DNA of 64,000 nt from Spirochaetales bacterium Spiro_02. Lineage in GTDB: Bacteria; Spirochaetota; Spirochaetia; Sphaerochaetales; Sphaerochaetaceae. How positions within the stretch are numbered: the first letter of the stretch is position 1; every line of letters starts with the position of its first letter. Location of the stretch: the NCBI GenBank assembly GCA_001604275.1, contig LVBD01000003.1, positions 1-64,000 on the forward strand, written 5' to 3'. The notes under the pieces are model-generated. The model had not been told where the DNA came from, searched no databases, and saw nothing but the letters and a program-made list of their open reading frames with translations. Made by a program: the position numbers and the translations under genes. Of this stretch, positions 10,498-38,793 are shown in pieces.

Positions 10498-10514
10498 TTT
10501 CCGCACCTAGCTGA

Positions 10515-16350: not shown

Positions 16351-16483
16351 CAATTTTTTGCTTTTTTTTATGACAATCGCTATTTACATATATATTCAAA
16401 TTAATTATTTATAATATATATAAATATTATTACTATAAGATTTTTTTAATATACAAAGAAAGAAGCAAACTACCATTTTTTAT

Positions 16484-16491
16484 TGTATACA
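16484..16491. promoter_or_regulatory. Second GntR operator core
   Basis: TGTATACA, with flanking TATT and TCA, repeats the core of the palindrome at 16307-16320 and lies 134 bases before the GntR start, upstream of a possible promoter (TTGCTT and TAAGAT). Two matching cores in one divergent region support looping or separate autoregulation. The rest of 16351-16624 is very AT-rich and holds no gene I can see. Confidence 0.45.
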
Positions 16492-16624
16492 TCAGTGAAT
16501 AATTATTTTTTTATTTGCTTTTCGGGGAAAAACCTGTAAGATGGGTCTATACATCGCACGCAACACATAAAAATCAAAAACAGCGGGAACATGTCGGATC
16601 GGCTCGCCATCGGACGGTAATGGT

Positions 16625-17284
16625 ATGACTAGAAAAAAAGATCTCCAATCAATGGTATATGAGAAAATCAGGGACAAAATCATCAACTGCGAATATTCAC
16701 CGGGAACGCTTTTGAAGGAAGATATCCTGAAAGAAGAGTACGCGGTCAGTCGCACCCCCGTGCGAGAGGCATTGGCGAGACTGGAGAACGAGGGGCTGAT
16801 CGTCATCAAACCGAAAAAAGGGATACTCGTTTCACCGATCACGATCGAGGAAGCAAACGAAATCTTCGAAATCCGCGAGCTATTCGAGACATACGCCCTT
16901 CGCGCCTATGGCAGGCAGATCCAATTCTCGATCCTGAAGGACTTCTACGTGCATACTTCCCTGTGCGATCCTGCAACCATCGACAGATTCGAATTCTTCA
17001 AGCTCGACGACGAGATACACCAGATGCTGCTCGATCCGGTCAAGAACACGTACATCCACAGGACGTACGAAACGATCCTGGCGCAGAACAACAGGCTCAG
17101 ATATATTACCGGCAGCATAGACGAGAACAGGATAGCCGAGACGAAGAAAGAGCATCTCCTCTTTCTCAAATCTTGCATCGACAACGACTGGGAGAGCGCC
17201 GAGTACTATCTCAGGGATCATTTGAGGAAATCGAGGACCACAGTATTCAACTATCTGCTAACGAATCAGGGCAGCGAGGGATAG
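16625..17284 (+). CDS. GntR family transcriptional regulator (FadR/FCD subfamily)
   Basis: A 219-residue regulator. The N-terminal winged helix is clear (MVYEKIRDKIINCEYSPGT ... VSRTPVREALARLENEGLI), followed by an all-helical FCD ligand-binding domain (EIFEIRELFETYALR ... HLLFLKSCIDNDWESAEYYL). It is transcribed divergently from the importer operon and probably represses it from the TGTATACA sites. Its last 19 bases overlap the end of the convergent serine hydrolase gene. Ligand unknown, likely a sugar acid or oligosaccharide. Confidence 0.9.
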   Translation: MTRKKDLQSMVYEKIRDKIINCEYSPGTLLKEDILKEEYAVSRTPVREALARLENEGLIVIKPKKGILVSPITIEEANEIFEIRELFETYALRAYGRQIQFSILKDFYVHTSLCDPATIDRFEFFKLDDEIHQMLLDPVKNTYIHRTYETILAQNNRLRYITGSIDENRIAETKKEHLLFLKSCIDNDWESAEYYLRDHLRKSRTTVFNYLLTNQGSEG

Positions 17285-18660
17285 CAACCGGACAACGCTT
17301 CAGTGCCGAACTCACCGACCACTTTGAGGTAGAAAGTCGGAAGTTCATGACGGCAAGCGACTTCGAACACAACCTTTCCAAGGATCCTTCCAAGGCTCTG
17401 TACCTCGATGACGCAGGTAGCCTCGTCGGACCATGCGCAGGAGGCCACGCATTCCTGCCCTGCCAGCAACTCACATCGTGTCGGAACGTTGCGGCCGAGG
17501 CCGAAGGTAATCCGATCCTCCGACCCGTCGCGAAAAAGGAGCGTAGCCTCCCCGCTATCTATTCCGAACGACAGGCGAACGCTCGCAAGAGCTCCGTCGG
17601 TACGATACGTCCGGCCGGAGAGGTTCGTCTCCCGCTTCGCATGCGACAGGCCGGAGCGATGCCGCAGCATCCGCTCCTTCGGTTCCGCTTGCGTGCCAGC
17701 CTTGCCGGCGGACAGGGAAATCACCGTCTCGAGCAACAAGCTTTCATCTCCCTGCAATCCTTCCGTATCCGCCGTCGTCACGGCCAGAAAATTCCGATCG
17801 GGCATGGCGATCGCGAACTGCCCGCCCATGCCGTACATGCACCAGCCACCGTCCGCAAGCGTCCAGAACTGCCAGCCGTATCCGGAAAAAGCGGGAAGCC
17901 GGAAGTCGCCGGTAGAGATGTCCATCCGTCGGGAACAAGCCGAGGCGAGATAGGTTGCCGGGACGATATTACTGTAGGCGATCGCATGGAGAACCTTCAT
18001 CAAATCGTACGGACGAAGACTCAATCCCGAGCCGCCCATCGGAAGTCCTTGCGGATCCGCCATCCAGGATATGTCATGGATTCCCAGCGGGGAAAACAAC
18101 TTGAGCGACAGATATTCCACAAGCGGCATTCCTCCCACCCGTTCGACCAATGCGGCGAGTACATGACTGGAACTCGTGTCGTACTTGAAAATCGTGCCGG
18201 GCCGATGATCCGGCGGCACGGTGAAAAACGATCCCGCATAGTCATCTGCATAGACCGTGCGACCATCCAGAAATCGCTTGTATGTCGTCCTGCTATGGCA
18301 GGTGGACATCGAGAGCATGTGCTCGATCGTAGTCTCGTTCAGCCATGGATGAACATTTTCCGGCACCTTGTCAGGAAAATAGTCCACGATTCTATCAGAA
18401 AGCCGTAGCGATCCGTCCTCCAGCAGGAAGCCGATGGCCAGCGAGACGAAACTTTTCGAAATCGAATACAGCCGATGGAGATTCTCCCGCTTCCAAGGAG
18501 CGTAGTAGTTCTCGTATACAAGTTTTCCATTCCGAGCGATCAAGAGCGCATGCAATGGCACGCCTCTGGAATCGAGATAATCCAGCGCATGTTCGATGTC
18601 AAAGGATGAAAGGCCTTCCTGTTGCGGAGTGCTTCGTTCCATGTCGTATTGTGCGGCCAT
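17266..18660 (-). CDS. Serine hydrolase, beta-lactamase/class C esterase family
   Basis: A 464-residue protein of the beta-lactamase superfamily. The S-x-x-K motif is SISK within YSISKSFVSLAIGF, and YDTSSSHVL provides the expected second motif. There is no signal peptide. Its AAGGAG site overlaps the stop of the preceding enolase-superfamily gene, so translation is coupled. Family members are mainly esterases or amidases; with these neighbours removal of ester groups from plant oligosaccharides is possible but not shown. Its C-terminal ~130 residues are outside the core fold and unrecognised. Confidence 0.75.
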   Translation of the reverse strand: MAAQYDMERSTPQQEGLSSFDIEHALDYLDSRGVPLHALLIARNGKLVYENYYAPWKRENLHRLYSISKSFVSLAIGFLLEDGSLRLSDRIVDYFPDKVPENVHPWLNETTIEHMLSMSTCHSRTTYKRFLDGRTVYADDYAGSFFTVPPDHRPGTIFKYDTSSSHVLAALVERVGGMPLVEYLSLKLFSPLGIHDISWMADPQGLPMGGSGLSLRPYDLMKVLHAIAYSNIVPATYLASACSRRMDISTGDFRLPAFSGYGWQFWTLADGGWCMYGMGGQFAIAMPDRNFLAVTTADTEGLQGDESLLLETVISLSAGKAGTQAEPKERMLRHRSGLSHAKRETNLSGRTYRTDGALASVRLSFGIDSGEATLLFRDGSEDRITFGLGRNVPTRCELLAGQECVASCAWSDEATCVIEVQSLGRILGKVVFEVACRHELPTFYLKVVGEFGTEALSGCYPSLP

Positions 18661-18662
18661 GT

Positions 18663-19796
18663 CTACTCCTTATTGTCTTCGATATATTCCCAGTTCCAGT
18701 CCCATCCCAATCCGGGAGAAGATGGAACGAACACGCAACCGTCGTCGTCCATCGGGTCGTAGATGGAATTCAGCCAGGGCTTCGGCTGTTCATAGTCCAG
18801 ATACGGATGCAACAGACCGCGTTCAAAGTATCTGCCGTTCCTGATCGCGGCAAGAATGTGGAGGTTGCCGATCGAGTTCCCATGCAGTTCCACGGTCATT
18901 CCGAACGAATCGTACAGGTGGACGCAACGCATCGCGCTTGTTATCCCCCCGCTGGTCAGCGCACCGGTCCGGCCGATATGAGAGGCGCCCGCGGAAATCC
19001 AGTCCGCCCGTGAATGATATTTTCCCGGCGCAGTCTCAGGCCCGCAGATGGGGACCGGGGACGCTTCCGTCAAGAACCGATAGGATGCGATGGAATGTTC
19101 GTCCATCGGCTCCTCCAGCCAGAGAAAGTCCAGTTCTCCCAGCCCTTTTGCCAATTCAAGCGCCTCTTCCCGCGAATAGTAATGATATGGGTCAAGCATC
19201 AGCGGGATGTCCGGTCCGACGGCCTCGCGAACCATCCGGCAAGCCTCGAGATCCAGCTTGACGGAAGCTTCTGGCACCGCGGGGGGCATCCACGTATGGA
19301 GTTTGAGCGCATGATATCCTTTCGCGACCAATTTCTGTGCGTAATCTGCATAGGCCTGAGGGGAATCGAGACCCCCTTCAAGCGTATCACCCACCATGAT
19401 GGAACCATAGCAGGGTACTTTCGTCCGATAGCCGCCGAGGATCTGCCAGATAGGAATCCCTAGCGTCTTTCCCAGCGCGTCGTACAGGGCGAGGTCGATG
19501 GCGCACAGTACATAGTCGCTGAATTCGGTCTTGAGGCGCTGCAGATGGATCAGACGCTGCCAGATCCGCTCTCTCATGAAAATGTCCTCGCCTACGAGTA
19601 CCGGTCTGACCGCCGACAGGACCAGGTCTTGGTAGATCGGGCCCATATAGCATCCCTTGACACCGTTTTCCAGTGTGATTTCAAGCATATGTTCCACTGC
19701 GTCATGGCCCGGACCCGGATGCGAGTGGTATTCCGAATCCCGAACCATGAAGGACTGATAATGCACTTTGTATACGGCTACGTCTGTGATTTTCAT
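18663..19796 (-). CDS. Mandelate racemase/muconate lactonizing enzyme family (enolase superfamily) dehydratase
   Basis: A 377-residue enolase-superfamily enzyme with an N-terminal capping domain and a C-terminal barrel. Metal-ligand blocks can be seen in order: LMLDPYHYY (Asp), WLEEPMDEHS (Glu) and PICGPETAPG (Glu); candidate general bases are in YHALKLHTW and VELHGNS. Such proteins dehydrate or epimerise sugar acids after removing the alpha proton. It is co-transcribed with the serine hydrolase (2-base gap) and diverges from the MBL hydrolase. The exact acid sugar cannot be named. Confidence 0.8.
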   Translation of the reverse strand: MKITDVAVYKVHYQSFMVRDSEYHSHPGPGHDAVEHMLEITLENGVKGCYMGPIYQDLVLSAVRPVLVGEDIFMRERIWQRLIHLQRLKTEFSDYVLCAIDLALYDALGKTLGIPIWQILGGYRTKVPCYGSIMVGDTLEGGLDSPQAYADYAQKLVAKGYHALKLHTWMPPAVPEASVKLDLEACRMVREAVGPDIPLMLDPYHYYSREEALELAKGLGELDFLWLEEPMDEHSIASYRFLTEASPVPICGPETAPGKYHSRADWISAGASHIGRTGALTSGGITSAMRCVHLYDSFGMTVELHGNSIGNLHILAAIRNGRYFERGLLHPYLDYEQPKPWLNSIYDPMDDDGCVFVPSSPGLGWDWNWEYIEDNKE

Positions 19797-20850: not shown

Positions 20851-23800
20851 GTTTCAATCCACGCACCCGCGGGGGGTGCGACGGTAAGCAAGAAGGAGGC
20901 CTAGGGTGCTGGTGAAGTTTCAATCCACGCACCCGCGGGGGGTGCGACGAGCCTTCGCCATGTCGTCGAACACGCCGATAGGGGTTTTAATCCACGCACC
21001 CGCGGGGGGTGCGACGGCGTTCTCTGCGGCGATTGCCACGACGTTATCCTGTTTCAATCCACGCACCCGCGGGGGGTGCGACTAGCGTCAAGCTTTGCTG
21101 TGTTGGAAGCCGACGCAGTTTCAATCCACGCACCCGCGGGGGGTGCGACGCGAGGCTCTAAACCAAAACGTACACGCTTGATAAGTTTCAATCCACGCAC
21201 CCGCGGGGGGTGCGACTCAGCTTCATATGGTATCGCGAGATAGTTGTTGCAGTTTCAATCCACGCACCCGCGGGGGGTGCGACAAATGGGTTCTCGGTGT
21301 GTGTCACATGGATATAAAGTTTCAATCCACGCACCCGCGGGGGGTGCGACGATGGTATTGCCGTACAGCTTCTCAAAGGTATCAAGTTTCAATCCACGCA
21401 CCCGCGGGGGGTGCGACGTGGGCATCCTGCAAACAAGATTGAGATAACACAAGTTTCAATCCACGCACCCGCGGGGGGTGCGACAGGCGTTCGCACCCGT
21501 GGCGATCATCGGGCAGGAGTTTCAATCCACGCACCCGCGGGGGGTGCGACCGCAGTTTCCTTGAGTACACCCTGCCTTCAAGGAGTTTCAATCCACGCAC
21601 CCGCGGGGGGTGCGACGGGGGGCGCGGTACAGTATAGGGGCTTTCTTGGGTGTTTCAATCCACGCACCCGCGGGGGGTGCGACGGACACTCTGGATGTGC
21701 TTCTTCGGCGATCTTCTGGTTTCAATCCACGCACCCGCGGGGGGTGCGACGCCCTGGTGGTTATGCGATACTAGGCCGCTTGCCTGTTTCAATCCACGCA
21801 CCCGCGGGGGGTGCGACCAGGCGTTCGCACCCGTGGCGATCATCGGGCAGGAGTTTCAATCCACGCACCCGCGGGGGGTGCGACCTTCTTCTGACGCTTG
21901 TTCATTATGCCTCCTCCTTGTTTCAATCCACGCACCCGCGGGGGGTGCGACCCCAATGAGGTCGATATAGTCAACATATGGGGTGAGGTTTCAATCCACG
22001 CACCCGCGGGGGGTGCGACCGGGCGGATTGCCCTTGGTTTCCTTGATCGACCAGTTTCAATCCACGCACCCGCGGGGGGTGCGACAGGGCAAGGAGCAAG
22101 GTCACAGCCCACGGATTCTTGTTTCAATCCACGCACCCGCGGGGGGTGCGACTTGACCACGGTGATGTCGTCCCGCGACAGGGCGCGTTTCAATCCACGC
22201 ACCCGCGGGGGGTGCGACCCCGATGTCCGCAAACTCCTTGCAGAACCCAGCTAGTTTCAATCCACGCACCCGCGGGGGGTGCGACATAGCTGGATCGGAT
22301 TTATTCATATAATGCCCCCTAGTTTCAATCCACGCACCCGCGGGGGGTGCGACGGTTTTCTCTGACGATGACGACACGGTTACGCCTGTTTCAATCCACG
22401 CACCCGCGGGGGGTGCGACAAAATGGTTTAACGCTTATACAAGCGCCTTATATGGTTTCAATCCACGCACCCGCGGGGGGTGCGACGCCTTATTATCATG
22501 ATCCCAATAACCCAATGTTAGGTTTCAATCCACGCACCCGCGGGGGGTGCGACTTTTCCTTGATGTAATGGTCCATATCGCTCAGATAGTTTCAATCCAC
22601 GCACCCGCGGGGGGTGCGACGTGCGGCATACTTGATGTTTGTTCCTATTTGGCCGGTTTCAATCCACGCACCCGCGGGGGGTGCGACAATAAACAAAGGA
22701 CTGATAATAATATATATAATGTTTCAATCCACGCACCCGCGGGGGGTGCGACTTGATGCTTGCTCTATGGACTCAACCGCCTTGTATGGTTTCAATCCAC
22801 GCACCCGCGGGGGGTGCGACGAGCGTCAATCACAGTGGGTAAAAGAGAACAACGTGTTTCAATCCACGCACCCGCGGGGGGTGCGACTTGAATAAATGGA
22901 ATCATGGCTTTGCTGATATCTTCGTTTCAATCCACGCACCCGCGGGGGGTGCGACGCGTTCGACCTTGAAGCGTATCGGTATGATGTTGTTTCAATCCAC
23001 GCACCCGCGGGGGGTGCGACACAGCCTTGTCAACCAGGATGTTCACCATCTGGTTGTTTCAATCCACGCACCCGCGGGGGGTGCGACGGTTAGGCACAAC
23101 CTTATCAGTCAACTTTGCTGTGTTTCAATCCACGCACCCGCGGGGGGTGCGACGATTTGCTCCCCCATTGCGTAGCGTTCACTCTTGGGTTTCAATCCAC
23201 GCACCCGCGGGGGGTGCGACGTCAGAGCGGTGTACACAGGGTTCCAAGCGTAGCCGGTTTCAATCCACGCACCCGCGGGGGGTGCGACATGTACACGGAG
23301 CCGTCCGCAGGGCTACCGATTATTGTTTCAATCCACGCACCCGCGGGGGGTGCGACACCATCCTTGATGAAACATTCGGTGCTATGAACTGGTTTCAATC
23401 CACGCACCCGCGGGGGGTGCGACACGATGCTGTTTTCACTTTTGCCGAAACGCTCCTGTTTCAATCCACGCACCCGCGGGGGGTGCGACAGCAATGGGAC
23501 GCTGATCCACAATCTTGTACGTTTGTTTCAATCCACGCACCCGCGGGGGGTGCGACACTGCAGGACCGTCAAGCAGGTTGAGGCTGTGTTGTTTCAATCC
23601 ACGCACCCGCGGGGGGTGCGACGACCCATGAGGTGAGGGGCACAAAATGCTCTGTTATGTTTCAATCCACGCACCCGCGGGGGGTGCGACGGTGTCAAAT
23701 TCACCATCGTTGGAGAGTACAACAGTTTCAATCCACGCACCCGCGGGGGGTGCGACGTTTGTCGAGCTTAACCCTAACGCTGCTATATATGGTTTCAATC

Positions 23801-26800
23801 CACGCACCCGCGGGGGGTGCGACCTACACCCAATGAGTAGGTGGTGACACCCGAAAGAGTTTCAATCCACGCACCCGCGGGGGGTGCGACTTGATGCCTG
23901 CTTGGTGTTGATGATCAGCTTAGGTCTGTTTCAATCCACGCACCCGCGGGGGGTGCGACTTTATCACATGCTTTTCAGCACATGGGGTAAGTGGTTTCAA
24001 TCCACGCACCCGCGGGGGGTGCGACTAGAGAAGGTCAATTAGTTGGTTGCTGTTTTAATGTTTCAATCCACGCACCCGCGGGGGGTGCGACATGCGTTCG
24101 ACCTTGAGGCGTATCGGGCAGACGTAGTTTCAATCCACGCACCCGCGGGGGGTGCGACAGCAAGATTTTGACGGTGGTAACGGCTGACCAAGCGTTTCAA
24201 TCCACGCACCCGCGGGGGGTGCGACTGGATGCAACATCGTCCAAGACTGCGGTGATAACAGTTTCAATCCACGCACCCGCGGGGGGTGCGACGCGATTAT
24301 TTTGTAATCCTTGACACGAGCACAGGGTTTCAATCCACGCACCCGCGGGGGGTGCGACATCAGTGGGGCGAGTATCGACACCGGCTATGGTGCGTTTCAA
24401 TCCACGCACCCGCGGGGGGTGCGACATCTTTCTGGCGTTCCTGGATACATCAACAACAGTTTCAATCCACGCACCCGCGGGGGGTGCGACCTACGATGAA
24501 ATACAGGTTTGTCGCATCGGTGTAGTTTCAATCCACGCACCCGCGGGGGGTGCGACTGTTACATCGTGAGTTGCATTAGGATGTGATGGAGTTTCAATCC
24601 ACGCACCCGCGGGGGGTGCGACCACAAATCCATCATCATCTGCCCTTATAGAAAGGTGTTTCAATCCACGCACCCGCGGGGGGTGCGACGCGGCTATGGG
24701 AAACTCGGTTATCTTGTATGGGGTGTTTCAATCCACGCACCCGCGGGGGGTGCGACTCCGGCATAGGTTACATCTGTTCCGTTCTCGGGTGTTTCAATCC
24801 ACGCACCCGCGGGGGGTGCGACTTCGTCCTTGTGGACGGTAGCGGTTTGCGTTTCTGGTTTCAATCCACGCACCCGCGGGGGGTGCGACTCTACAAGCCC
24901 TTCATAGTTGCCAGCGTCAAGGTAGTTTCAATCCACGCACCCGCGGGGGGTGCGACATTGTCTTTGCTTCGATGTCCTCGCAATGGTCGATGTTTCAATC
25001 CACGCACCCGCGGGGGGTGCGACATTGTCTTTGCTTCGATGTCCTCGCAATGGTCGATGTTTCAATCCACGCACCCGCGGGGGGTGCGACAGGCATATTC
25101 ACTTCAGCAATAGAGACACTGATAGTTTCAATCCACGCACCCGCGGGGGGTGCGACAACATCTTTCTGGCGTTCCTGGATACATCAACAACAGTTTCAAT
25201 CCACGCACCCGCGGGGGGTGCGACAGCACCATTTGGGGTTCCATCAACCAAGTGCAAGAGTTTCAATCCACGCACCCGCGGGGGGTGCGACTCGTGTTAC
25301 CCGGCCCAGTGCTACCATTCCAGTAGGTTTCAATCCACGCACCCGCGGGGGGTGCGACCAACAGGTGTCGACGATTGATAGTCGTCTCTGTTGTTTCAAT
25401 CCACGCACCCGCGGGGGGTGCGACTTCGTGATACCCGGCCCACTGTTACCATTCCAGTAGTTTCAATCCACGCACCCGCGGGGGGTGCGACCGATGTCCG
25501 CAAACTCCTTGCAGAACCCAGCTAGTTTCAATCCACGCACCCGCGGGGGGTGCGACTCCCTCACGGCTAGGTATCTCGATGCCTTGGCTACGTTTCAATC
25601 CACGCACCCGCGGGGGGTGCGACTCAGGATGCCCATTAACTATAGGTGTCACAGCTTTGTTTCAATCCACGCACCCGCGGGGGGTGCGACGTGGACGGCA
25701 CGTGGTTCGCATGCAGATACGCCTTGTTTCAATCCACGCACCCGCGGGGGGTGCGACATGGAACAAGGGTATTCGGAGCAGTTCAAAATAGTGTTTCAAT
25801 CCACGCACCCGCGGGGGGTGCGACCAAGTGCGATGGTTACGTAGCTCATCTTCAAGATGTTTCAATCCACGCACCCGCGGGGGGTGCGACACGCCAGTGT
25901 TGGGGTCATAGCTTGTCGTGTGCTGGTTTCAATCCACGCACCCGCGGGGGGTGCGACGGATATATAACACTTGATTGACACTATCAAAGTAGTTTCAATC
26001 CACGCACCCGCGGGGGGTGCGACATAGCCCCAACGCTTGTCAATGTGTTGCACGTAGGGTTTCAATCCACGCACCCGCGGGGGGTGCGACGACCCATGAG
26101 GTGAGGGGTGTGAAGTGCTCTGTTAGGTTTCAATCCACGCACCCGCGGGGGGTGCGACGCCAAGATTGACGCTGGTGCATCGTTTAATTTCGTTTCAATC
26201 CACGCACCCGCGGGGGGTGCGACGTTGCGTGGGGTGGCACGATTGACTACAACCAAGAGTTTCAATCCACGCACCCGCGGGGGGTGCGACAGCAGTCAAC
26301 GATTGACGGTTTGTTTGACGCACTGGTTTCAATCCACGCACCCGCGGGGGGTGCGACTTCGTGTTACCCGGCCCATTGCTACCATACCAGTAGTTTCAAT
26401 CCACGCACCCGCGGGGGGTGCGACGCCCCAACCCCGGCTCCTCCTGTCGTTTTCGGCAAGGTTTCAATCCACGCACCCGCGGGGGGTGCGACAGATGCCA
26501 CGGAGCAACTCGCCGTTCATCCCAATGTTTCAATCCACGCACCCGCGGGGGGTGCGACGGAGAAACCCTTTCATCATTGCGACTTCTGCTGGGTTTCAAT
26601 CCACGCACCCGCGGGGGGTGCGACGCGATGCACCATCCCCACGGCATCACCGATACGGACGTTTCAATCCACGCACCCGCGGGGGGTGCGACGGACATCA
26701 TCGTTGACCTCAACGCACGACTAGCGTTTCAATCCACGCACCCGCGGGGGGTGCGACAATCCCACGGTATCACTTGCACCTTCGGCCATTTGGTTTCAAT

Positions 26801-29800
26801 CCACGCACCCGCGGGGGGTGCGACTTCAATAACAAGTTGTAAAACCGTTCCGACAAGGGTTTCAATCCACGCACCCGCGGGGGGTGCGACCCATCGCACT
26901 TGAGGATGCAGACTACGAGGTGGCAGTTTCAATCCACGCACCCGCGGGGGGTGCGACAGCAACAGGTGACTCCCACTTGATGATTGCAATTGTTTCAATC
27001 CACGCACCCGCGGGGGGTGCGACGTTCCCGCTTCGGGGGTGGATGCGGCCGCTGAGGTGTTTCAATCCACGCACCCGCGGGGGGTGCGACTTTCAGCCTC
27101 GGCGGCAGTGTTTCTCCTTTCTACTGTTTCAATCCACGCACCCGCGGGGGGTGCGACAGTAAGAGCATGAACTCATTCAACACCGACCTGCGGTTTCAAT
27201 CCACGCACCCGCGGGGGGTGCGACTCGATTTCAACCGAGCCTTCAATATATTTCAGGTAGTTTCAATCCACGCACCCGCGGGGGGTGCGACAAGCGTTGA
27301 CACAGTTGGACATCTTCGGTTCACTGTTTCAATCCACGCACCCGCGGGGGGTGCGACTTCATTGGGGATGATTGCACGGTTGACGCTGTACGTGTTTCAA
27401 TCCACGCACCCGCGGGGGGTGCGACGCCTTCCTCTTTGCCATCCTCGGCCTTCAGCGAAAGTTTCAATCCACGCACCCGCGGGGGGTGCGACTGCATGTG
27501 CCAACTGCATTGCGACTACATGCCGTTGTTTCAATCCACGCACCCGCGGGGGGTGCGACACTTCACCCCGAGCACCTCCTTGACATAGTGGTCGTTTCAA
27601 TCCACGCACCCGCGGGGGGTGCGACACGCTACAGCGTAGGAAACATGCTTCCGTCGGGTCTGTTTCAATCCACGCACCCGCGGGGGGTGCGACATGATGA
27701 CGATTGACACCATTCTTTCCCTATTCAAGTTTCAATCCACGCACCCGCGGGGGGGTTTCAATCCACGCACCCGCGGGGGGTGCGACGCCCTGACGCTCAC
27801 CGACGCCCGTAGCCCACTCATGTTTCAATCCACGCACCCGCGGGGGGTGCGACCAGACCGATGCCGACCTCATGTACAACTCGCTGGTGTTTCAATCCAC
27901 GCACCCGCGGGGGGTGCGACAACGATGGTTGATGACCCTGCCGCCGTTGCACAGGGTTTCAATCCACGCACCCGCGGGGGGTGCGACAAGGCCCTTTTAT
28001 TTTCCTTCCATCAGAAGATGTGTTTCAATCCACGCACCCGCGGGGGGTGCGACGAGTGGCGTTTGCATTTCATTTTTTTTCCTCTCCGGTTTCAATCCAC
28101 GCACCCGCGGGGGGTGCGACTTTCGTCGTTGTTCGGGTCGGTCAGATTGCCCCTCTGTTTCAATCCACGCACCCGCGGGGGGTGCGACCTGCGCAACTTG
28201 CGGGCATTCTTTCGGAGAGGAGTTTCAATCCACGCACCCGCGGGGGGTGCGACAATGCCTCTGCGGCCTTTCCCCATATGCTCATGTTGTTTCAATCCAC
28301 GCACCCGCGGGGGGTGCGACGGAATACGGCACTGATGGTGATGTTACCGCCGTAAGGTTTCAATCCACGCACCCGCGGGGGGTGCGACGTCAATAAGGTT
28401 GTTATTCTCGTCGTACAGATACAAGTTTCAATCCACGCACCCGCGGGGGGTGCGACTGTCACTCGGACGCAACACAGTCCTGTTCGACGCGTTTCAATCC
28501 ACGCACCCGCGGGGGGTGCGACACGGTGGATAAGCTGAGTTTGCGCATCGAAAACGTTTCAATCCACGCACCCGCGGGGGGTGCGACGAGGTTGGCAGGG
28601 TGTGGGTCGATAACGGAGTATTGTTTCAATCCACGCACCCGCGGGGGGTGCGACGCCCCTTCCTCCAGCACGCCGTAGAGATATTTGTAGTTTCAATCCA
28701 CGCACCCGCGGGGGGTGCGACTGCTCAGGCTTTCTGTGATTATCAAAATCAGAGAGTTTCAATCCACGCACCCGCGGGGGGTGCGACGATCGACGATATG
28801 GGCAGGTCGAGGTGGTCCGCAGTTTCAATCCACGCACCCGCGGGGGGTGCGACTCTAGGCCATTTACGAGTTCATTGCCAATACGTTTGTTTCAATCCAC
28901 GCACCCGCGGGGGGTGCGACGAAGCGCGTTCGGCTGAGTACACCAAGATACAGGTGTTTCAATCCACGCACCCGCGGGGGGTGCGACGCGAAGATAACCT
29001 TGCCGGACTCACGTGCAATCTGTTTCAATCCACGCACCCGCGGGGGGTGCGACTGGCAAGGAGGAGTAAAGATGCCTACTATTTTCGTGTTTCAATCCAC
29101 GCACCCGCGGGGGGTGCGACGTTCATCCTTGCCGCATCCCCTGCGACTACCATAGAGTTTCAATCCACGCACCCGCGGGGGGTGCGACGTAATGTTTGTC
29201 GCCTCTACCCTCCCGTTCGCATGTTTCAATCCACGCACCCGCGGGGGGTGCGACTCCAACAGGGGCAGGATCAAATTCTCTCATACATGTTTCAATCCAC
29301 GCACCCGCGGGGGGTGCGACTAGGCCCATTCGTTCGCAGTTTGTCCAGTACCGTTGTTTCAATCCACGCACCCGCGGGGGGTGCGACGGAAATCGGGACG
29401 GGGTTTATAGCTATATTCGTGGTTTCAATCCACGCACCCGCGGGGGGTGCGACGACATATCATCGCCCCACCGAGTTCCACTCACGTCCGTTTCAATCCA
29501 CGCACCCGCGGGGGGTGCGACCTGCTCCAAAGGGTTGTTGCCAAACAGAGTTCGTGTTTCAATCCACGCACCCGCGGGGGGTGCGACATGACGGGTATCT
29601 TTTCAGCAACGGAAGCTACCAGGTTTCAATCCACGCACCCGCGGGGGGTGCGACGTCACCCTTTCCCTGTAGTAGCAGACTTCTCTAGTTTCAATCCACG
29701 CACCCGCGGGGGGTGCGACAAGTGTGTATCATCGCAATTAAAAACGCAAAACAGTTTCAATCCACGCACCCGCGGGGGGTGCGACGTCCAAGTAGGTGGT

Positions 29801-30915
29801 AATAGCCATTCAATCTAAAGTTTCAATCCACGCACCCGCGGGGGGTGCGACACCATAGCACCAAACAAGGCTAGTGGAAACAGCGTGTTTCAATCCACGC
29901 ACCCGCGGGGGGTGCGACTTGAGATTCGCAATTCGGACATCCCGATTGACCAGTTTCAATCCACGCACCCGCGGGGGGTGCGACATGGACGATGGGGATT
30001 ATTTTGCAATCCTTGATACGTTTCAATCCACGCACCCGCGGGGGGTGCGACATCAGCATACCCAAGTGGTCTAGCATTTGATGGTACGTTTCAATCCACG
30101 CACCCGCGGGGGGTGCGACCCGACATCATCGTTGACCTCAACGCACGACTTGCGTTTCAATCCACGCACCCGCGGGGGGTGCGACAGCAAGTAATATCTG
30201 GTATACAAGTTGTGGTGGTAGTTTCAATCCACGCACCCGCGGGGGGTGCGACATCAATAGCTCGATATGATAACCATGCCATGCATTGTTTCAATCCACG
30301 CACCCGCGGGGGGTGCGACTCGCACGTTAGAGAGTACATCAGAGTCTATAGTTGTTTCAATCCACGCACCCGCGGGGGGTGCGACACCAGTCTTTTTTTT
30401 TATGTTCAACCACAACGCTTGTTTCAATCCACGCACCCGCGGGGGGTGCGACACCGATATTGTTATGCAAACTTTGTCATCAATAGTTTCAATCCACGCA
30501 CCCGCGGGGGGTGCGACGCTTGCATGAGTGTTTAATCTCTACTATCAAAAGGTTTCAATCCACGCACCCGCGGGGGGTGCGACATGACAACCGATAACAA
30601 AGAACCATGGTACAAGGTGTTTCAATCCACGCACCCGCGGGGGGTGCGACGTTGTCATATATCCGGCGCCGTCTGGGTTGTTGGTGTTTCAATCCACGCA
30701 CCCGCGGGGGGTGCGACGTGTGACGATTGCGGCGCGGTAGTTGCGACGGAGGTTTCAATCCACGCACCCGCGGGGGGTGCGACTGGGAAGTCAATTTTAG
30801 CAACAACGTGCGACAGTGTTTCAATCCACGCACCCGCGGGGGGTGCGACTGAGGACTGGGCGAGAAAGTCAGATACTGGTATTGTTTCAATCCACGCACC
30901 CGCGGGGGGTGCGAC
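20851..30915 (-). CRISPR. Type I-C CRISPR array, about 152 repeats
   Basis: The 32-base repeat begins GTTTCAATCCACGCACCCGC and ends GGGGGGTGCGAC on the plus strand. In the transcribed minus orientation it begins GTCGCACCCCCCGCGGGTGC and ends GTGGATTGAAAC, the classic I-C form with a central stem. I count 152 copies by hand at intervals of about 65-68 bases, so spacers are 33-36 bases. The repeat is almost invariant: one copy at 20984 reads GTTTTAATCC, and one at 27729-27754 lacks its last six bases and is directly followed by a full repeat. Leader-side (newest) spacers are near 30,900 and the oldest near 20,850. Open frames within it are artefacts of the periodic repeat. Confidence 0.99.
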
Positions 30916-31096
30916 TGTATGCTCCATATCTTACTTCAAACAAAGAAAATAAATCAAGTAAAACGCGAACCGCGAAAGCCTTAGTGCGTTTTGTGCATTA
31001 TCAGTCCTGCGCTCAATTGATAAAGATCAGAACCACCAAGAGTTGATGTATTTGCGAACATACTCGCATTTTCTGTTTCTTTGAGGTTCGCGATCG
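30916..31096 (-). promoter_or_regulatory. CRISPR leader with candidate promoter
   Basis: These 181 bases lie between the newest repeat and the cas2 stop. Near the repeat the minus strand has TTGATT (30957-30952) and TAAGAT (30933-30928), 18 bases apart, which would start the precursor crRNA roughly 10 bases before the first repeat. CGCGAACC (30964-30971) and GGTTCGCG (31085-31092) form an exact inverted repeat at either side. No gene is seen here. Confidence 0.7.
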
Positions 31097-31387
31097 CTAT
31101 ACGATCAACGGACCATCAATATCTACATCGATCCTAGCTCCTACATGCTCGACTTTGTTCTGCCATTTGGCCCCAAGATAATAATACCGCAGACTATCAG
31201 TTCGCAGGTCAATGATTTTCTCCAGTTTCGCTTTGAGGGAGACCCATTGGGCTGGTTCGACAACACATTCGAATACAGAAAACTGGACACGTTGCCCAAA
31301 ATCGGTACAAGCTTTCGCAACTTTCCGCAACCGTTTTGCCCCATCTTCATGAGTAACCATCACATCATAGCTTACAAGAACCAGCAA
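31097..31387 (-). CDS. cas2: CRISPR-associated endonuclease Cas2
   Basis: A 96-residue ferredoxin-fold protein of the Cas2 family. It has the N-terminal strand MLVLVSYDVMV with the conserved aspartate, and FGQRVQFSVFECVV. With Cas1 it forms the spacer-integration complex. I use the TTG start at 31387: GGAGG lies 6 bases upstream and overlaps the last two codons of cas1, so the two are translationally coupled. It is the last gene of the cas operon, next to the leader. Confidence 0.95.
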   Translation of the reverse strand: MLVLVSYDVMVTHEDGAKRLRKVAKACTDFGQRVQFSVFECVVEPAQWVSLKAKLEKIIDLRTDSLRYYYLGAKWQNKVEHVGARIDVDIDGPLIV

Positions 31388-31390: not shown

Positions 31391-32422
31391 TCACCTCCAG
31401 AAGAAAGGGGGGTATCCATCGATATCACCCCGGATATATCGAGAGAGCAAGGTCGCCTGGACATGGAACAGCAATCCTATCGGAACTGTTTCCTCTATGT
31501 AGGGATGCATGACGGTCTCCTGCTTTCTCCTTTGATATTCAACTAAAACAGTCTTTCTTGTCTCATCGTCCATAGTCACCGCACCATGCAGTGCTTTTAC
31601 AAACCCTTTCCGTGAAACCTGCTTCCGGTTGACCATCGACAACACCAGACGGTCAGCGATAACTGGACGAAATTCTTCCATGATATCGAGCGCAAGACTT
31701 TGACGACCAGGCCGATCGCGATGCAGATATCCGACATATGGATCCAATCCTACAGCCTCCAATGCAGACTGGACATCGTGCATCAGCAAAGTATATACAA
31801 ACGAAAGCAACGCATTCACAGCATCCATGGGAGGACGCCGATTACGATCAGAGAAAACAAAATCTTCTTTTTGACTCGTAATCAAATGATCGAACACAGC
31901 GAAGTATTCCGCTGCGGCAAGCCCCTCGATCCCCCGCACGGCATCAACGGTTTGCGCATAAGGAATCGTATCAATGATACGTCCAATAGCTTGAGAAGCG
32001 ACTATGACTGCTTCTCTGTCTATCTTATCGCCATGGTCGCGCATAGCTCGGTTGAGCACCACACGGGAGTTCACCAGTTTTCCAGTGACGATATTCGCCG
32101 CGATATCACGGGAAACAGCGTCATCATCGGCCATCCGGTATTGCTGCCGACGAACCAGAACGTTTCCTGATACAGGCCCCCGGACAGCAGCGAGGAATCG
32201 CCCATGCTCGCTGAGGAAAGAAATCGAAATGGCATGCTCTGCACAGAACCCAAGAAGAAAGGGAGAACACAAGACGTTGCCGAAGCAGACGATGCCCTCG
32301 ATGTTGTGGATCGGCAATTGCAGGATCTTCTTCTGTTCGACCTCGACGACAACCGTTTCCCCTTCTTTATGCAGATAGGCTCCTTGCGTCCTGACATACA
32401 ACGTATTCAGCAGTTTTTTCAT
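31391..32422 (-). CDS. cas1: CRISPR-associated integrase Cas1 (type I-C)
   Basis: A 343-residue protein. The N-terminal beta domain is followed by the helical catalytic domain with the metal residues in GIEGLAAAEYF (Glu), GLDPYVGYLHRDRPGRQSL (His) and ALDIMEEFRP (Asp/Glu). It cuts and joins new spacers into the leader-side repeat. The ATG at 32422 overlaps the cas4 stop by four bases; a longer in-frame extension upstream would run through cas4 and is rejected. Confidence 0.96.
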   Translation of the reverse strand: MKKLLNTLYVRTQGAYLHKEGETVVVEVEQKKILQLPIHNIEGIVCFGNVLCSPFLLGFCAEHAISISFLSEHGRFLAAVRGPVSGNVLVRRQQYRMADDDAVSRDIAANIVTGKLVNSRVVLNRAMRDHGDKIDREAVIVASQAIGRIIDTIPYAQTVDAVRGIEGLAAAEYFAVFDHLITSQKEDFVFSDRNRRPPMDAVNALLSFVYTLLMHDVQSALEAVGLDPYVGYLHRDRPGRQSLALDIMEEFRPVIADRLVLSMVNRKQVSRKGFVKALHGAVTMDDETRKTVLVEYQRRKQETVMHPYIEETVPIGLLFHVQATLLSRYIRGDIDGYPPFFWR

Positions 32423-33075
32423 GCTGGATTCTCCGTCTGAATGATTCTCGTCTGATTCTGGACGTATCGCGACACTTGCTTTCCGCCCGCTCCGAAATGC
32501 TTCGGCCCGCATAAATCGAACAAAGAGCAGGCGTTGCATTTCTTCGGTTCATACACCGCTTTCGGTGTCTCTTCGCCGGCCATCAGCGACCTGCATCGCT
32601 CTACCAAGATCAGCGTCTGTGAAACAAGCGGATCATCAATCTCTATGGTCTTTCGCCGGTGTTCCTGCAGATAATATATCTGCCCGCACGGTACATCCAT
32701 TTCGAACATCTCTTGCAGGCAAATGGCTTGGGCGCACAACTGGACGAGATCGACATCCGTCTCTTTGGTTTTCCCGCGTTTGAACTCGACGGGAGTGATG
32801 CAGACCGGAGTCTTGCGATCTTGCAACTGAATTTCCACAAGATCGCAGATACCGATCAAACCATACGTTGTGGAGCGGATGGCGAAACCAAATTCCTGGC
32901 GTACGGTGCGCCGTGATTCATGATGCTCGGCATGTACCCGTTCATGCAATATCCGACCTTCCGCCGTGAACCGGTTCTCCGACCACATCCGTTCGACATG
33001 AATCAGGGAAAACTGACGTTCGCAGAACAATACGTGCTGCAAAGCGGAAACGGGAATGAGCAATCCATCGTCCAT
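32419..33075 (-). CDS. cas4: CRISPR-associated exonuclease Cas4
   Basis: A 218-residue RecB-family nuclease with an iron-sulphur cluster. One cluster cysteine is in LFCERQF near the N-terminus and three are in CNACSLFDLC near the C-terminus. Nuclease residues lie in LIGICDLVE (Asp) and TPVEFKRGK (Glu, Lys). In type I-C it trims prespacers at the PAM side and so fixes the spacer boundary and orientation; the array shows just such a fixed boundary. It starts 3 bases after cas7. Confidence 0.95.
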   Translation of the reverse strand: MDDGLLIPVSALQHVLFCERQFSLIHVERMWSENRFTAEGRILHERVHAEHHESRRTVRQEFGFAIRSTTYGLIGICDLVEIQLQDRKTPVCITPVEFKRGKTKETDVDLVQLCAQAICLQEMFEMDVPCGQIYYLQEHRRKTIEIDDPLVSQTLILVERCRSLMAGEETPKAVYEPKKCNACSLFDLCGPKHFGAGGKQVSRYVQNQTRIIQTENPA

Positions 33076-33078: not shown

Positions 33079-33960
33079 TCATACTGACACAACCGTCTGC
33101 AATCGTGACAACGGAGAGCCGTCGAGCAAGACGTTGTAATCCGAAAAATCCCTTGGAGGGGTATCCGATGCTGTCGTCCGGCGTACTGCTACGCGGGAAA
33201 ATAGATCCTGAGCAGGAACATCGCCCATCAATGAATCGTGCTGGAAAATGATCAGGCGCTGAGAACTCATCAATCCTCTGGCTGCGGAACGATCCTGCTC
33301 GAACATACGCTCCAGCGCATCCCAGAACAGGTCAAGGTCTTCCACTGAGAATCCGGTCTGGCGGGCAAGGGGCGCTGAAACGAATCCATAAACCTTGTAC
33401 AGACCGTACGGAATAGTGAATTTCCTCCCCATTGTCCGGTTGTCACCGGACTGCGCTTCGGCTTCCTTCTGCGTCGTGACCGCCATCCGCGTAATACTGT
33501 GCTCGGCCGTCACTACAGGATCGACGGAACGAGCGAACGTCAGCTGAACCGGACCGCGCACCTGCCCGCAGTTGACACCGGTCGACATAACGGCACCGAA
33601 CGTTCTGACATCGAAGAAATTCTTGCACATCCAGGCTCTTGCCTCATCGACCCGATCGCCACCCTTCCGTTTGCCGGTATCCTTGCTCAAATCCTCTCCC
33701 AATGCCTCATATGCGCGAGCTTGTTCATCGTTGAGGATCGCTTTCTCCCGTACGAAGATCTCATATGGAGGCTTGTTGCCTTTCGCAAGCTCCACATAAT
33801 TCCGTACCTTCCGCTTCAGGCAGACATCGGTAACCAGTCCGTTTCCTGTTTCCGGATCGATCCGGGGAAGATTGCCCGCATCAGGATCCCCGTTGGGGTT
33901 TCCGTCCTTCACGTCGAAATAGAGAATAAAGTCGTAGCGTCCCTGTATGTCCATCGTCAT
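33079..33960 (-). CDS. cas7: Cascade backbone protein Cas7 (Csd2)
   Basis: A 293-residue RAMP-type protein of the Csd2/Csh2 family that coats the crRNA in the type I-C effector. The typical N-terminus [21 protein letters not shown] and the glycine-rich region [11 protein letters not shown] are present. The ATG overlaps the cas8c stop by four bases. Confidence 0.95.
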
Positions 33961-35741
33961 GCCTCCTGTGCTCCCATTGTTTTTGGTTCTGAAGATTCTT
34001 TTTTAGTATAGAACGCCTGTTTCTGATGATAGTATCCGATGGCGAACCTCCCCTGTTCCTGTAAATTCAGATGCGTGGGGAAATCGCCGACATGGCCGAG
34101 AATCTCGCTCAAAAGCTGATTGTAATAGACAACCGACGGTTTGCTGTCGATCTTGGCAAGATGGAATTTCATCAACCGCAGCAAAGTACCGAATACCGTG
34201 ACGGGAGAACTGCTTGCGGCGCTATAGTATCGTTCCGTAATCGTAGCGTTCAAAGTACCTCCACTGGCGTCTTTCTGGATTTTTTCCAATGTGGCGAACA
34301 GCCGTCCCAACTGATATCCGATCGAAGGATGATCGGTATCCAACGCTATGCCCATTTCTTTGTCCTCCTTATGTGGATGCATTCTCATATAACGGTTCAG
34401 GTATCCTTTGATAATAGCAGCTCTCGCAGGCGTTATCCGTTCGGATACATCGGCATGCACTCTGCGCAAGGCCCCTTGCAGGATGCTGAGAGGAAACGGA
34501 GCCCCATCTACAATTGCCGAAAACAGGTCTCCCGCTATATTCGGCGGAATGTTCTCGCTCTTGCCTTGGACGGCGATGTTGACCAGCAATCTCCACAGCG
34601 AATAGTACTCTGGTTCCCGCGGCGGCTTAACGATCCTGAGGTCTTCGAAATACTGACGGATATTCGTGGCGAACTGCGATACAGGACCGCATCTCCAGAA
34701 CCGGACGGCGATCCTTGCCGCATTGGGGGTCAGTCCGAGCACATAGAACTCGGTCATGTCATCGGTTGCGTCATATGCCCCTGTCTTCGGAGCCTCAAAC
34801 AGAGCTCTGATGCGCTCGGTACCGTCGCGAGGGTCGTCTTTCGGCGGTTCACTAAAATAGAAGGAGAAATCGGCTTCGAATTCCGTATCCTCCGCAGCCC
34901 AAAAGACCAGGGTCAGGTCTCCGTAGGACAACTTTTGTCTCGACTCGGAACCGAGCAGTTCATTCAGCGCGGTGGTATAGGCGAACATTCCTTTTCGTCC
35001 GATCGGTGCATTGTATCCCTGTTTCTTGCCATACGAACAGAAAGGATCCAGATTGAACGATACAATGCTGGCTCCGCTGGATTGCGCCCCCCGTACTCCT
35101 TTGATCGACGTATGGAGCTTGCTGATGCCGTCGTTTCGGCCGGTCACCAGGCAGAAACCGTCATCTTCTCCGCTCATGGACAAGCGGTCGACCGCAGACT
35201 GGACGGCCGGTCCTTCGCAATACAGCTGGAACTCTCCCTGGAACCGAAAGCTGACTACCGCCTTCAACTGCTTCATCTCGTTCCAAACGGGAAACTGTGC
35301 CAGATCCGGTTCTTGAACCGTCCTCAGAAAAGTGACGATCATATGTGCTTGTGGATCGTCAGGGAGCGTATTCTCGATTTTTTCAATGAACTGACGTTGC
35401 TGGTCCCGCGCCCGATCCAACGTTTTCTCCAATTTCCCAGAGTCCTCGTCGTCGGGTGGTCGGTCGATTCCGATTTCCCCGAATACATACGGCACCGTAT
35501 CCCACAGCAGGTTCGCCTCGATCCCCGAAGATCGCTTCACCCCTAGCGGAACCAAAAAGGATTTCGCGCCATTGTTCTTTTCCTTCATGTCTCGGGTATC
35601 TTCGATCTGTATCAGACGCCCTTCGCGATCAAGGACGATGATGAACGGGATCGGCTTGCGCTCCCACCCCTCCGGCGCAATATCACTTGCCGGGTCGGAG
35701 CTTCTGCGGTCATAGTAGGTTGTAAGCGCTTGCAAAATCAT
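33957..35741 (-). CDS. cas8c: Cascade large subunit Cas8c (Csd1)
   Basis: A 594-residue type I-C large subunit that recognises the PAM and recruits Cas3; in this subtype an internal start within the gene can also yield a small Cas11-like subunit. Family hallmarks are the start [13 protein letters not shown], the [10 protein letters not shown] region and [18 protein letters not shown]. Its ATG overlaps the cas5c stop by four bases. A specific internal Cas11 start was not resolved. Confidence 0.95.
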
Positions 35742-36475
35742 GAGCGGACCTCCACCAACCGACGATCCGTGACGACCACCCCGTTTTCCATCCGCGCCCT
35801 GAAGAATTCCGGGCGTATCGCATTCGGATCAGAAAAATCAAGATCATACAACATCCACCCCAGATCCTGCGTCACATTGATCGATGGCGATTCCAAAGCA
35901 AGCGAATCGGAATCCAGCAGCCGGAAATAGCAAGCGAATTCACGGCAACCGAGGTATGGGCGATGGAAGCACTGTCCTTTTCGCGCACGACGTTCGAACA
36001 TGGCGGCATATTTTGCAGGAGTTTCGTCCTGCCGATCCTGCGTTTCGAATTCGGACTGATCGGCCCAATACGCTTCCTCGCTCGACCTGTTGTTCCGTCG
36101 TTCTTCAGGAGGTATAAATTCAAACCATGCATGGAGTCGGTACCGGACATCACGAAGAAGCAAACCAGCGCGTTGCTGTCGATATTCGTCGGCAAAAAAA
36201 CCGAAAGGTTTCGTCGGTGTCCCTCCCAGCTGAGCTTTTGAAGGTTTTCCTGCAATTTTCCCGACTTCATTTCTCCGCACGGATATGAACCTGACGGGAT
36301 TCAGAATCTCGATCTTCGTGACATTCCATCTGATGGCCGGCTTCCAAAGAATCGCCTCGAATATCGCTCGGGCGGCGGAAGGGGTCATGACATCGTAACT
36401 TACCCGCTCGACTTTCATCTCAGGTCGGGTAAAACAGGCAAAGTCACCCCAGACTTCAAGACACCAGTCCTTCAT
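35738..36475 (-). CDS. cas5c: Cas5c (Cas5d) crRNA-processing ribonuclease and Cascade subunit
   Basis: A 245-residue RAMP protein of the type I-C Cas5 group (LEVWGDFACFTRPEMKVERVSYDVMTPSAARAI). No cas6 is present, which fits: in I-C systems Cas5c cuts the precursor in the repeat and holds the 5' handle. It starts 16 bases after cas3. Confidence 0.95.
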   Translation of the reverse strand: MKDWCLEVWGDFACFTRPEMKVERVSYDVMTPSAARAIFEAILWKPAIRWNVTKIEILNPVRFISVRRNEVGKIAGKPSKAQLGGTPTKPFGFFADEYRQQRAGLLLRDVRYRLHAWFEFIPPEERRNNRSSEEAYWADQSEFETQDRQDETPAKYAAMFERRARKGQCFHRPYLGCREFACYFRLLDSDSLALESPSINVTQDLGWMLYDLDFSDPNAIRPEFFRARMENGVVVTDRRLVEVRS

Positions 36476-36491: not shown

Positions 36492-38759
36492 TTATGACGT
36501 TATATAGGCCTCCGGATCGCTACAAATATCGTCTATCAGCAATCCTTTTTCTTCACTATACTCCATTTTGCACTGCAACGCAAAAAAATTTGGAGCAACT
36601 TCCAGCAAGGATCCGCGATGCAACAAGGTAAAAAACTGGTTCTCGTAGACTTGCACGGTATAGCGCTGGAGCTTGCGGAGCAACCATCTTTCGGGCCCGT
36701 TCCGTTTAAGTGTCTCGATCAAGGCAGCGCCGTCGGCATATGGAACGAAAAGAGTCTTCATCATACTGTCGTCCACCACGTGGAACGCTTCGGAAGCCGA
36801 TCTGAACTGGATGCCGAGATTCGGCCTGCCGGGGCGTAGGAGTTCACAAATATGGTTTGCATCCAGCGAGTTAGCTTTCCAATACAGCTCAGAAAAGAAC
36901 GCGGTGAAATTCTCCGGCGACAGGGGATCGGACAAACCGCCTCGTATCATTCCGGCTGTCGTCTCACAGGCTTTGCGTAAAATGCCGACTGGAGGCTTTC
37001 GCGGGCCGACGAACACCACGACACGTCCTGTTCTCCCCTGAGCGGACAATAGTCCTTCCCGATTGCAACGGCCTGCGGCTTGGGCGATGGAATCCAATCC
37101 CGCAAGTGAGCGATATACAATAGGAAAGTCGATATCCACCCCTGCCTCCACCAGCTGGGTGCTGATCACCCGGACCGGCCCGTCGCCTTTGAGATCCGCT
37201 TTGATCCGGGATATCATTTCACTCCTGTGTTGGGGGCACATCAGTGCGGAAAGATGGTACGTTCCTTTCGGCATCAGCGTATGCAGATCCCGACAGCTTT
37301 TCCGGTCTGACACGATGCACAGGATTCTGTCGTATCCGGACAGTTCCCGTGCGATCTCTTCCCACGATCTGACCGTATCGACATCTATCGGGGCTATCTC
37401 CACCCTTCGCAGTCCGCGATATAGTGCGGAGACGTCCTGCACAATCTCCCGTACGCTTCCTTGCGGAAGGCCGGCGAATTGAGGGAAGCGCTGTTGTTTC
37501 TCCAACACCGGCTGCGTAGCGGTACAAATGACGATGCTGGTTCCGAAATGTTCCGTCAGAATCCGCAATGTTTCAAGAATCGGCTTGAGATACTCCACCG
37601 GCATCAGTTGGGCTTCGTCAAGAATCACGACGCTATCGACGATATTGTGGAGCTTCCTGCATCGTCCGGGTTTTGCGGCGAACAACGATTCGAAAAACTG
37701 CACCGTCGTGGTGACGATCAGTGGTGCGTCCCAGTTTTCCGTAGCGAGACGGGCGGGATCATCATCCGAAACATCGCGCTCTTCGATATTGCAATGATGC
37801 TCCACCACCTGGTCATCGCCCAGCACTCGGCGGAACACGTCGGCGTTCTGTTCGATGATGCTTGTGTACGGCATCACGTAGATGATCCGTTGTTTTCTGT
37901 GCACGAGGGCATGGTCGAGTGCGAAAGCAAGGCTGGAGAGCGTCTTGCCGCCCCCTGTGGGAACCGTGAGGGAAAAGAAGCCCGGGGGCATCGAAGCTGC
38001 GGCTCTGCAATCAGCCAGCACGGTCCGTCGGATCCTGTTGACCGGAGTGTCGGCGTTGCGCATGACGGTCTCGGTCAGGTCTTTCATGTAGGCGTCGTAT
38101 CGCTGTCGTAGCAGCTCCAGCGATGCATATTCGTGCCGTTTGTTCGCAGTTTCCGGTTTCATGTATCGTTCTGTATCCAGATAGTCGGCATCGACCAGAC
38201 AGGAAAACAGCATCCTGATCCACAGGGACATGTCAAGTCCGTCAGGGCTGAATCGCCAGGGTACGGTACGCAATGCATCCGCATCGGATCCGAGTAGTTG
38301 ACGGAATTGCCGCGGGATATGGTCGGTTTCGGTCTGTTGCATCCGGAACTGGAGGGAACTTTGCGTGCCGGACCAGTCGGGAAGTCCAGTATGGTGGCCG
38401 GCTATCAGATATGAGAGGATACGTCCGGGACCTTTTCCGATCGCTTCCTCGACGGCTTTCGCCCCCGGCGCGGAATGTTCGATCTTCCGGCTTCCGGTAG
38501 TCTCATATCCATCCTCGGTTCCATAGCCGCTGACTTCAATAAGATAATTTTGCCACTCCTTAGTACTTTTTCCCAAGTCATGGCCAATACCAGCTTCGTA
38601 CGCCCAAGCTGCGGATTTGAATGGTCTTGCGAACTCAGACGCTATCTTCGCTACATGCTCAAGATGCTCCAGCAGCGATTGCGGTTCGTCCCACAGCCCG
38701 GCTTCCGTCTGTCGCACATGTGCGGCCGGTTCAGGAAATACGGATGATGTCGTGTCCAT
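36492..38759 (-). CDS. cas3: Cas3 HD nuclease-helicase
   Basis: A 755-residue effector that unwinds and degrades DNA marked by Cascade. The N-terminal HD domain shows LEHLEHVAKIA, GHDLGKS, IEHSAPGA and AGHHTG. The helicase part has Walker A VPTGGGKTLSSLAFALD, the DEAQ box VVILDEAQLMP and motif VI region QAAGRCNREG. The ATG at 38759 is preferred to a GTG six codons upstream. No ribosome site precedes either; a promoter lies so close that the message may begin at the ATG itself. Confidence 0.96.
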   Translation of the reverse strand: MDTTSSVFPEPAAHVRQTEAGLWDEPQSLLEHLEHVAKIASEFARPFKSAAWAYEAGIGHDLGKSTKEWQNYLIEVSGYGTEDGYETTGSRKIEHSAPGAKAVEEAIGKGPGRILSYLIAGHHTGLPDWSGTQSSLQFRMQQTETDHIPRQFRQLLGSDADALRTVPWRFSPDGLDMSLWIRMLFSCLVDADYLDTERYMKPETANKRHEYASLELLRQRYDAYMKDLTETVMRNADTPVNRIRRTVLADCRAAASMPPGFFSLTVPTGGGKTLSSLAFALDHALVHRKQRIIYVMPYTSIIEQNADVFRRVLGDDQVVEHHCNIEERDVSDDDPARLATENWDAPLIVTTTVQFFESLFAAKPGRCRKLHNIVDSVVILDEAQLMPVEYLKPILETLRILTEHFGTSIVICTATQPVLEKQQRFPQFAGLPQGSVREIVQDVSALYRGLRRVEIAPIDVDTVRSWEEIARELSGYDRILCIVSDRKSCRDLHTLMPKGTYHLSALMCPQHRSEMISRIKADLKGDGPVRVISTQLVEAGVDIDFPIVYRSLAGLDSIAQAAGRCNREGLLSAQGRTGRVVVFVGPRKPPVGILRKACETTAGMIRGGLSDPLSPENFTAFFSELYWKANSLDANHICELLRPGRPNLGIQFRSASEAFHVVDDSMMKTLFVPYADGAALIETLKRNGPERWLLRKLQRYTVQVYENQFFTLLHRGSLLEVAPNFFALQCKMEYSEEKGLLIDDICSDPEAYITS

Positions 38760-38765
38760 AGGACG

Positions 38766-38793
38766 ATTATATCCCACAAATCGCGAAATTCAA
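38766..38793 (-). promoter_or_regulatory. Promoter of the cas operon
   Basis: TTGAAT (38793-38788) and a perfect TATAAT (38771-38766) are 16 bases apart on the minus strand. The predicted start point, about 7 bases on, is the A of the cas3 ATG, and no Shine-Dalgarno sequence is present. Confidence 0.65.

Follow-up and report, generated by a model that had tools for sequence, protein, structure and literature searches.

Does a spacer that occurs twice in one CRISPR array at two different lengths record a copying event within the array, or a second capture of the same protospacer? This question is raised by an array of Spirochaetales bacterium Spiro_02, which we analysed within a window of 64,000 nt (contig LVBD01000003.1, positions 1-64,000, forward strand; all coordinates below are those of the window). 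The system is type I-C, having the Cas8c/Csd1 signature together with Cas5c, Cas7 (Csd2), and Cas3, and the 32-bp repeat with its ATTGAAAC end and the spacers of about 33-37 nt are likewise those of type I-C. The repeat reads GTCGCACCCCCCGCGGGTGCGTGGATTGAAAC in the crRNA sense, i.e. on the minus strand, so that the high-coordinate end is that of the leader and of the most recent spacers; numbering therefore starts there, with #1 as the newest and #150 as the oldest. Spacers of 33, 34, 35, 36, and 37 nt occur 10, 44, 76, 19, and 1 times, respectively. No second array with this repeat was found in the genome, a draft of 74 contigs. At 27694-27787, a truncated repeat of 26 nt carries no spacer and directly abuts the next repeat, so that this unit lacks its spacer and 6 nt of its repeat.

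The gene set cas3-cas5c-cas8c-cas7-cas4-cas1-cas2 lies beside the array on the minus strand (Table 1), and the adaptation genes for Cas1c, Cas4, and Cas2 adjoin the array, Cas2 being recognized by position and translation only. The Cas4-assisted I-C setting which the first-pass annotation of this DNA had invoked is thus borne out by the I-C signature genes and by the Cas1c/Cas4/Cas2 set next to the array.

Table 1. Features of the type I-C locus of Spiro_02 and of the spacers discussed in the text
Feature	Coordinates	Strand	Length	Remarks and basis
Type I-C CRISPR array	20851..30915	-		150 spacers (33-37 nt) between 151 complete repeats of 32 bp
Leader region	30916..31096	-		between array and cas2; sequence, inferred from gene order
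cas2	31097..31387	-		translation, position, size; start codon uncertain
cas1 (Cas1c)	31391..32539	-		TIGR03640, 514 bits
cas4	32419..33075	-		TIGR00372, 114 bits
cas7 (Csd2)	33079..33960	-		TIGR02589, above cut-off
cas8c (Csd1)	33957..35741	-		TIGR01863, above cut-off
cas5c	35738..36475	-		TIGR01876, above cut-off
cas3 (HD + helicase)	36492..38777	-		HD above cut-off; helicase TIGR01587, E=1e-26, just below cut-off
Spacer #141	21485..21518	-	34 nt	pair 1, short form
Spacer #136	21818..21852	-	35 nt	longer copy of pair 1; one more G at the crRNA 3' terminus
Spacer #130	22219..22253	-	35 nt	longer copy of pair 2; GG added at the crRNA 3' terminus
Spacer #81	25492..25524	-	33 nt	pair 2, short form
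Spacer #97	24426..24458	-	33 nt	pair 3, short form
Spacer #86	25157..25192	-	36 nt	longer copy of pair 3; GTT added at the crRNA 3' terminus
Spacers #89 and #88	24957..25058	-	35 nt each	adjacent, identical, with the repeat between them
Spacer #84	25292..25326	-	35 nt	family #84/#82/#68; begins with an additional C, 1 nt upstream of the other two
Spacer #82	25425..25459	-		family #84/#82/#68
Spacer #68	26358..26392	-		family #84/#82/#68
Spacer #119	22956..22988	-	33 nt	homologous to #102 but diverged; PAM end in common, 2 nt less at the distal end
Spacer #102	24092..24126	-	35 nt	partner of #119
Spacer #63	26693..26725	-	33 nt	diverged homologue of #12
Spacer #12	30120..30153	-	34 nt	partner of #63
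Spacer #109	23623..23658	-	36 nt	diverged homologue of #72
Spacer #72	26091..26126	-	36 nt	partner of #109
Spacer #28	29054..29088	-		protospacer matched exactly, with 5'-TTC, in two IMG/VR contigs and a prophage of a same-family genome
Spacer #150 (oldest)	20883..20916	-		protospacer matched exactly, with 5'-TTC, in an IMG/VR contig (L096); two relatives have 1-2 mismatches

Three pairs of spacers, all found exactly at the coordinates and lengths which the first-pass annotation had reported, are identical over 34/34 (#141/#136), 33/33 (#130/#81), and 33/33 (#97/#86) positions, an identity that cannot be chance. The annotation had also described the members of each pair as matching from the crRNA 5' end and differing by 1-3 nt at the 3' end, and this proved accurate: the 5' offset is 0 in all three pairs, and the 3' ends differ by 1, 2, and 3 nt, with G, GG, and GTT as the extra bases. 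The members of these pairs are 5, 49, and 11 spacers apart, respectively, and have no neighbouring spacers in common, which indicates that the three pairs are not block duplications.

Other related spacers are also present in the array. Spacers #89 (24957-24991) and #88 (25024-25058), which had escaped the first-pass annotation, are probably a tandem duplication. In four near-identical families (#84/#82/#68, #63/#12, #109/#72, and #119/#102), likewise absent from that annotation, the members differ from each other by two to six scattered substitutions, and these families therefore represent separate acquisitions from the same site of related phages. Repeat acquisition of one protospacer certainly occurs in this array. 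The 5' end is common to the members in four of the six family comparisons (#63/#12, #109/#72, #119/#102, and #82/#68), and among the two-member families, two differ in length at the 3' end (33/34 and 33/35 nt) and one does not (36/36 nt). The extra 5' C of #84, the predicted last base of TTC, is what a cut that slipped into the PAM would leave. The sites from which #99 (24293-24326) and #14 (29985-30019) were taken in related phages overlap, with an offset of 9 nt; spacers with such overlaps were so few and so divergent that they could not serve as internal evidence for the PAM.

To place the window in a wider frame, type I-C arrays adjoining Cas1c (TIGR03640) were collected from genomes of the same phylum together with one locus from a scan of public genomes, which, with the window counted, amounted to 1,789 spacers in 42 arrays. 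The survey covers one phylum, and most of its informative pairs come from the window and three other loci (L056, L082, and L086). Where an array contained similar spacers, these were assigned to one of three classes: block copies (neighbours copied too), adjacent copies, or isolated pairs. None of the 39 block-copied pairs, which are partly non-independent, has a changed end or length, whereas the length differs in 9 and is kept in only 7 of the 16 isolated identical pairs (Fisher p = 1.8e-6). The earlier premise that recombination copies length exactly is thus supported, with both ends kept in 39/39 block pairs. The isolated identical pairs differ at the distal end in nine cases and at the PAM side in two. 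When all 37 isolated pairs are considered, 16 differ at the distal end only, three at the PAM side only, six at both ends, and 12 at neither (p = 0.004 for 16 vs 3). The PAM-side end is therefore fixed and the distal end variable, as in Cas4-assisted processing, with occasional slips of 1 nt at the PAM side. The fixed PAM cut that had been claimed holds as the prevailing pattern but not as an invariant rule, since #84 in the window and 9/37 survey pairs, mostly by 1 nt, are offset at the 5' end. For the 28 pairs with a fixed 5' end, the mean length difference is 1.00 nt, compared with 1.01 nt expected for random spacers of the same arrays, which suggests that the position of the distal cut is not dictated by the protospacer. 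That copies of the same protospacer vary at the distal end as much as unrelated spacers do speaks for a ruler that measures loosely, and against a signal in the sequence.

Taken with the survey, the three pairs of the window are very probably independent re-acquisitions in which Cas4 set the PAM-side cut and the distal end was trimmed stochastically. The proposal of independent acquisitions with ragged distal trimming is supported by the isolated position of the pairs and by the change of length in 9/16 isolated as against 0/39 block-copied pairs.

The strongest challenge to re-acquisition is that each pair might go back to a single acquisition that was copied by recombination within the array and then altered by replication slippage where spacer and repeat meet, with G, GG, or TGT lost or gained. 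All three length differences in the window fit the contraction of such tiny repeats, with a joint chance of 0.003 as judged from the window's own spacer ends, and slippage-compatible cases are more frequent in the window (4/5) than in the other arrays (2/11, p = 0.036). This fit is the best argument against the re-acquisition reading. However, the G6 run is intact in all 151 repeats, with no change of length, and it is implausible that slippage would strike runs of G2-G4 only beside duplicated spacers. Moreover, the constant length of block-copied spacers speaks against slippage after copying, the pairs lack the common neighbours of a copied block, and 10 of the 16 distal-only pairs, including #119/#102 of the window (22956/24092), are incompatible with slippage. 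The distal extras elsewhere are also mostly of another kind (A, C, CAC, CG, and GCG). Considering these points together, we regard copying followed by slippage as improbable.

Two other explanations are weaker still. One is that the integrase, rather than trimming, makes a real ragged end: where a spacer has a terminal G, either side could supply the G with which the repeat begins, and the register of integration would shift by one base. The extra bases do start with G in 3/3 pairs, and G is depleted at the crRNA 3' base of the window spacers (17/150, p = 8.5e-5). A one-base shift, however, leaves differences of 2-3 nt unexplained, pairs in other arrays have extra A, C, CAC, or GCG, and the other arrays have no depletion of 3' G but a slight enrichment (416/1596), so that a register shift appears very unlikely. 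Errors of assembly, which the first-pass annotation had named as what might overturn its reading, or of sequencing are conceivable in a 74-contig draft, as assemblers struggle with duplicated spacers. Yet 150 of the 151 repeats are exact, the single exception being a substitution, the duplicated spacers contain no internal indels and differ at one end only, and the same pattern is seen in independent assemblies, including single-contig genomes (L043 and L056). We give this explanation hardly any credence.

For the preferred reading, independent re-acquisition, the following course can be proposed. A Cas4-Cas1-Cas2 complex would capture one protospacer on separate occasions, the source each time being one and the same phage or a close to identical one. 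Cas4, as the presumed maker of the PAM-side cut in Spiro_02, would cleave the overhang precisely beside TTC, leaving identical 5' ends. The distal end would be trimmed to a ruler of ~35 nt with a random scatter of ~1 base, independent of the protospacer, to yield spacers of 33-37 nt; either a host exonuclease or imprecise measuring may produce this raggedness. Three exact re-acquisitions, or nine pairs if the diverged families are included, among 11,175 pairs correspond to ~3,700 or ~1,200 equally likely PAM sites, respectively. As TTC occurs once per 30 bp, both strands counted, in a phage contig of the target group, these numbers translate into target DNA of roughly 40-120 kb. Hot spots may thus not be required for repeat capture, if a few phages mainly fed the array.

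Protospacers locate the PAM on the shared side. Those of #28 and #150 were found in a prophage of a same-family genome and in two IMG/VR contigs (L094/L096 and L095/L097), and in three phage sequences TTC lies directly 5' of the protospacer in crRNA sense, while the other end has no common motif. This puts the PAM at the end common to the pairs. The expected TTC is thus present at the 5' end of #28 and #150; for the three pairs themselves, no protospacer was found in the GenBank phage collection, 196 related genomes, or, for one pair, an exact scan of IMG/VR, and we infer the TTC next to them. A search of the GenBank phage collection with the other half of the array gave no match, nor did degenerate patterns of the other spacer families find one in IMG/VR. 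Spacer #147 (21083-21117) resembles a tail-fibre-like gene of the own prophage (L072), with five mismatches and CTC instead of TTC. A relative carries a type II-like array with 36-bp repeats and 30-nt spacers (L090; G066:C38, ~9000-11000), which holds a spacer against the same phage site as #28 and also a spacer pair differing by one base.

The phages targeted by the array bring in a second subject, diversity-generating retroelements (DGRs). The prophage matched by #28 and #150 (L069, positions 15122-19355; genome G002, same family) is contractile-tailed with a tail sheath and has a complete DGR. This comprises a reverse transcriptase and two repeats, template and variable, which differ from each other at template adenines. 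Two IMG/VR contigs likewise matched by these spacers (L096 and L097) also represent a tail-sheath phage with a complete DGR. Spacer #28 covers the start of the DGR target gene and #150 matches a neighbouring tail-fibre gene, and #50 (27560-27593) and #125 (22554-22588) match, at the protein level, adjacent parts of the DGR reverse transcriptase of this phage (DHYVKEVLGVK and YLSDMDHYIKE, respectively). DGR-type reverse transcriptases are present in 47/118 genomes of the family, including Spiro_02's own prophage, whose region (C63:16501-36500) holds a retroelement with template and variable repeats; the only relative of this reverse transcriptase in IMG/VR was one contig with an identical copy.

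In the trio #84/#82/#68, all four variable sites fall in AAY codons of one frame (YW[N/Y]G[N/S][S/T/N]GPG[I/N]T). Random placement would give this confinement at a rate of 3.5e-4, and the three control families (#63/#12, #109/#72, and #119/#102) do not show it. A second frame (TGMVAMGRVT and variants) is also open, with conservative changes, and codon usage gave no choice between the two. Neither a protospacer nor a DGR template for the trio was found in IMG/VR or 297 genomes, and searching both frames in the 297 genomes returned only the array itself. It may be that #68, #82, and #84 stem from one protospacer in three DGR output variants, the memory being renewed as a receptor-binding gene mutated; as no target was found and the second frame is open, we hold this reading tentatively, at slightly less than an even chance. 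Published work on DGR phages has used CRISPR spacers for host assignment, and our incomplete literature search found no report of spacers that match different versions of a variable region. If the DGR reading is true, arrays would also record the tracking of hypermutating phages.

In summary, the view of the array as a natural record of prespacer processing is supported, and other I-C arrays in the 42-array survey show the same pattern. The mechanism is of a kind already known, and what the array adds is a record from nature, with length serving to mark re-acquisition. A fixed PAM end with a length difference is a simple mark by which re-acquisition can be told from duplication, and the trimming of memory fragments can be read from type I-C arrays. 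The origin of the PAM-distal end of the type I-C prespacer has been stated as open (PMC6519985), and spacer pairs from the same protospacer isolate, in nature, the step that makes this end. In the Cas4-Cas1-Cas2 system of Bacillus halodurans I-C, cutting at the PAM side is precise and the distal cut is unassigned (PMC6519985). The two systems are alike in their cas1/cas2/cas4 set, in the precise PAM-side end, and in a distal end independent of the PAM cut, but the B. halodurans data come from purified proteins, whereas the window offers the read-out of a natural array with predicted enzymes. During I-C priming in Legionella pneumophila, two spacers were independently acquired from one protospacer (PMC5071653); that re-acquisition occurred under laboratory priming with a plasmid, whereas the window represents one array lineage in nature. 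SpacerPlacer (PMC11472070), which takes multiple independent acquisitions as rare and classifies them by reconstructed position, also deals with repeated spacers in one array; unlike its position-based classes, it is length polymorphism that separates copying from re-acquisition here.
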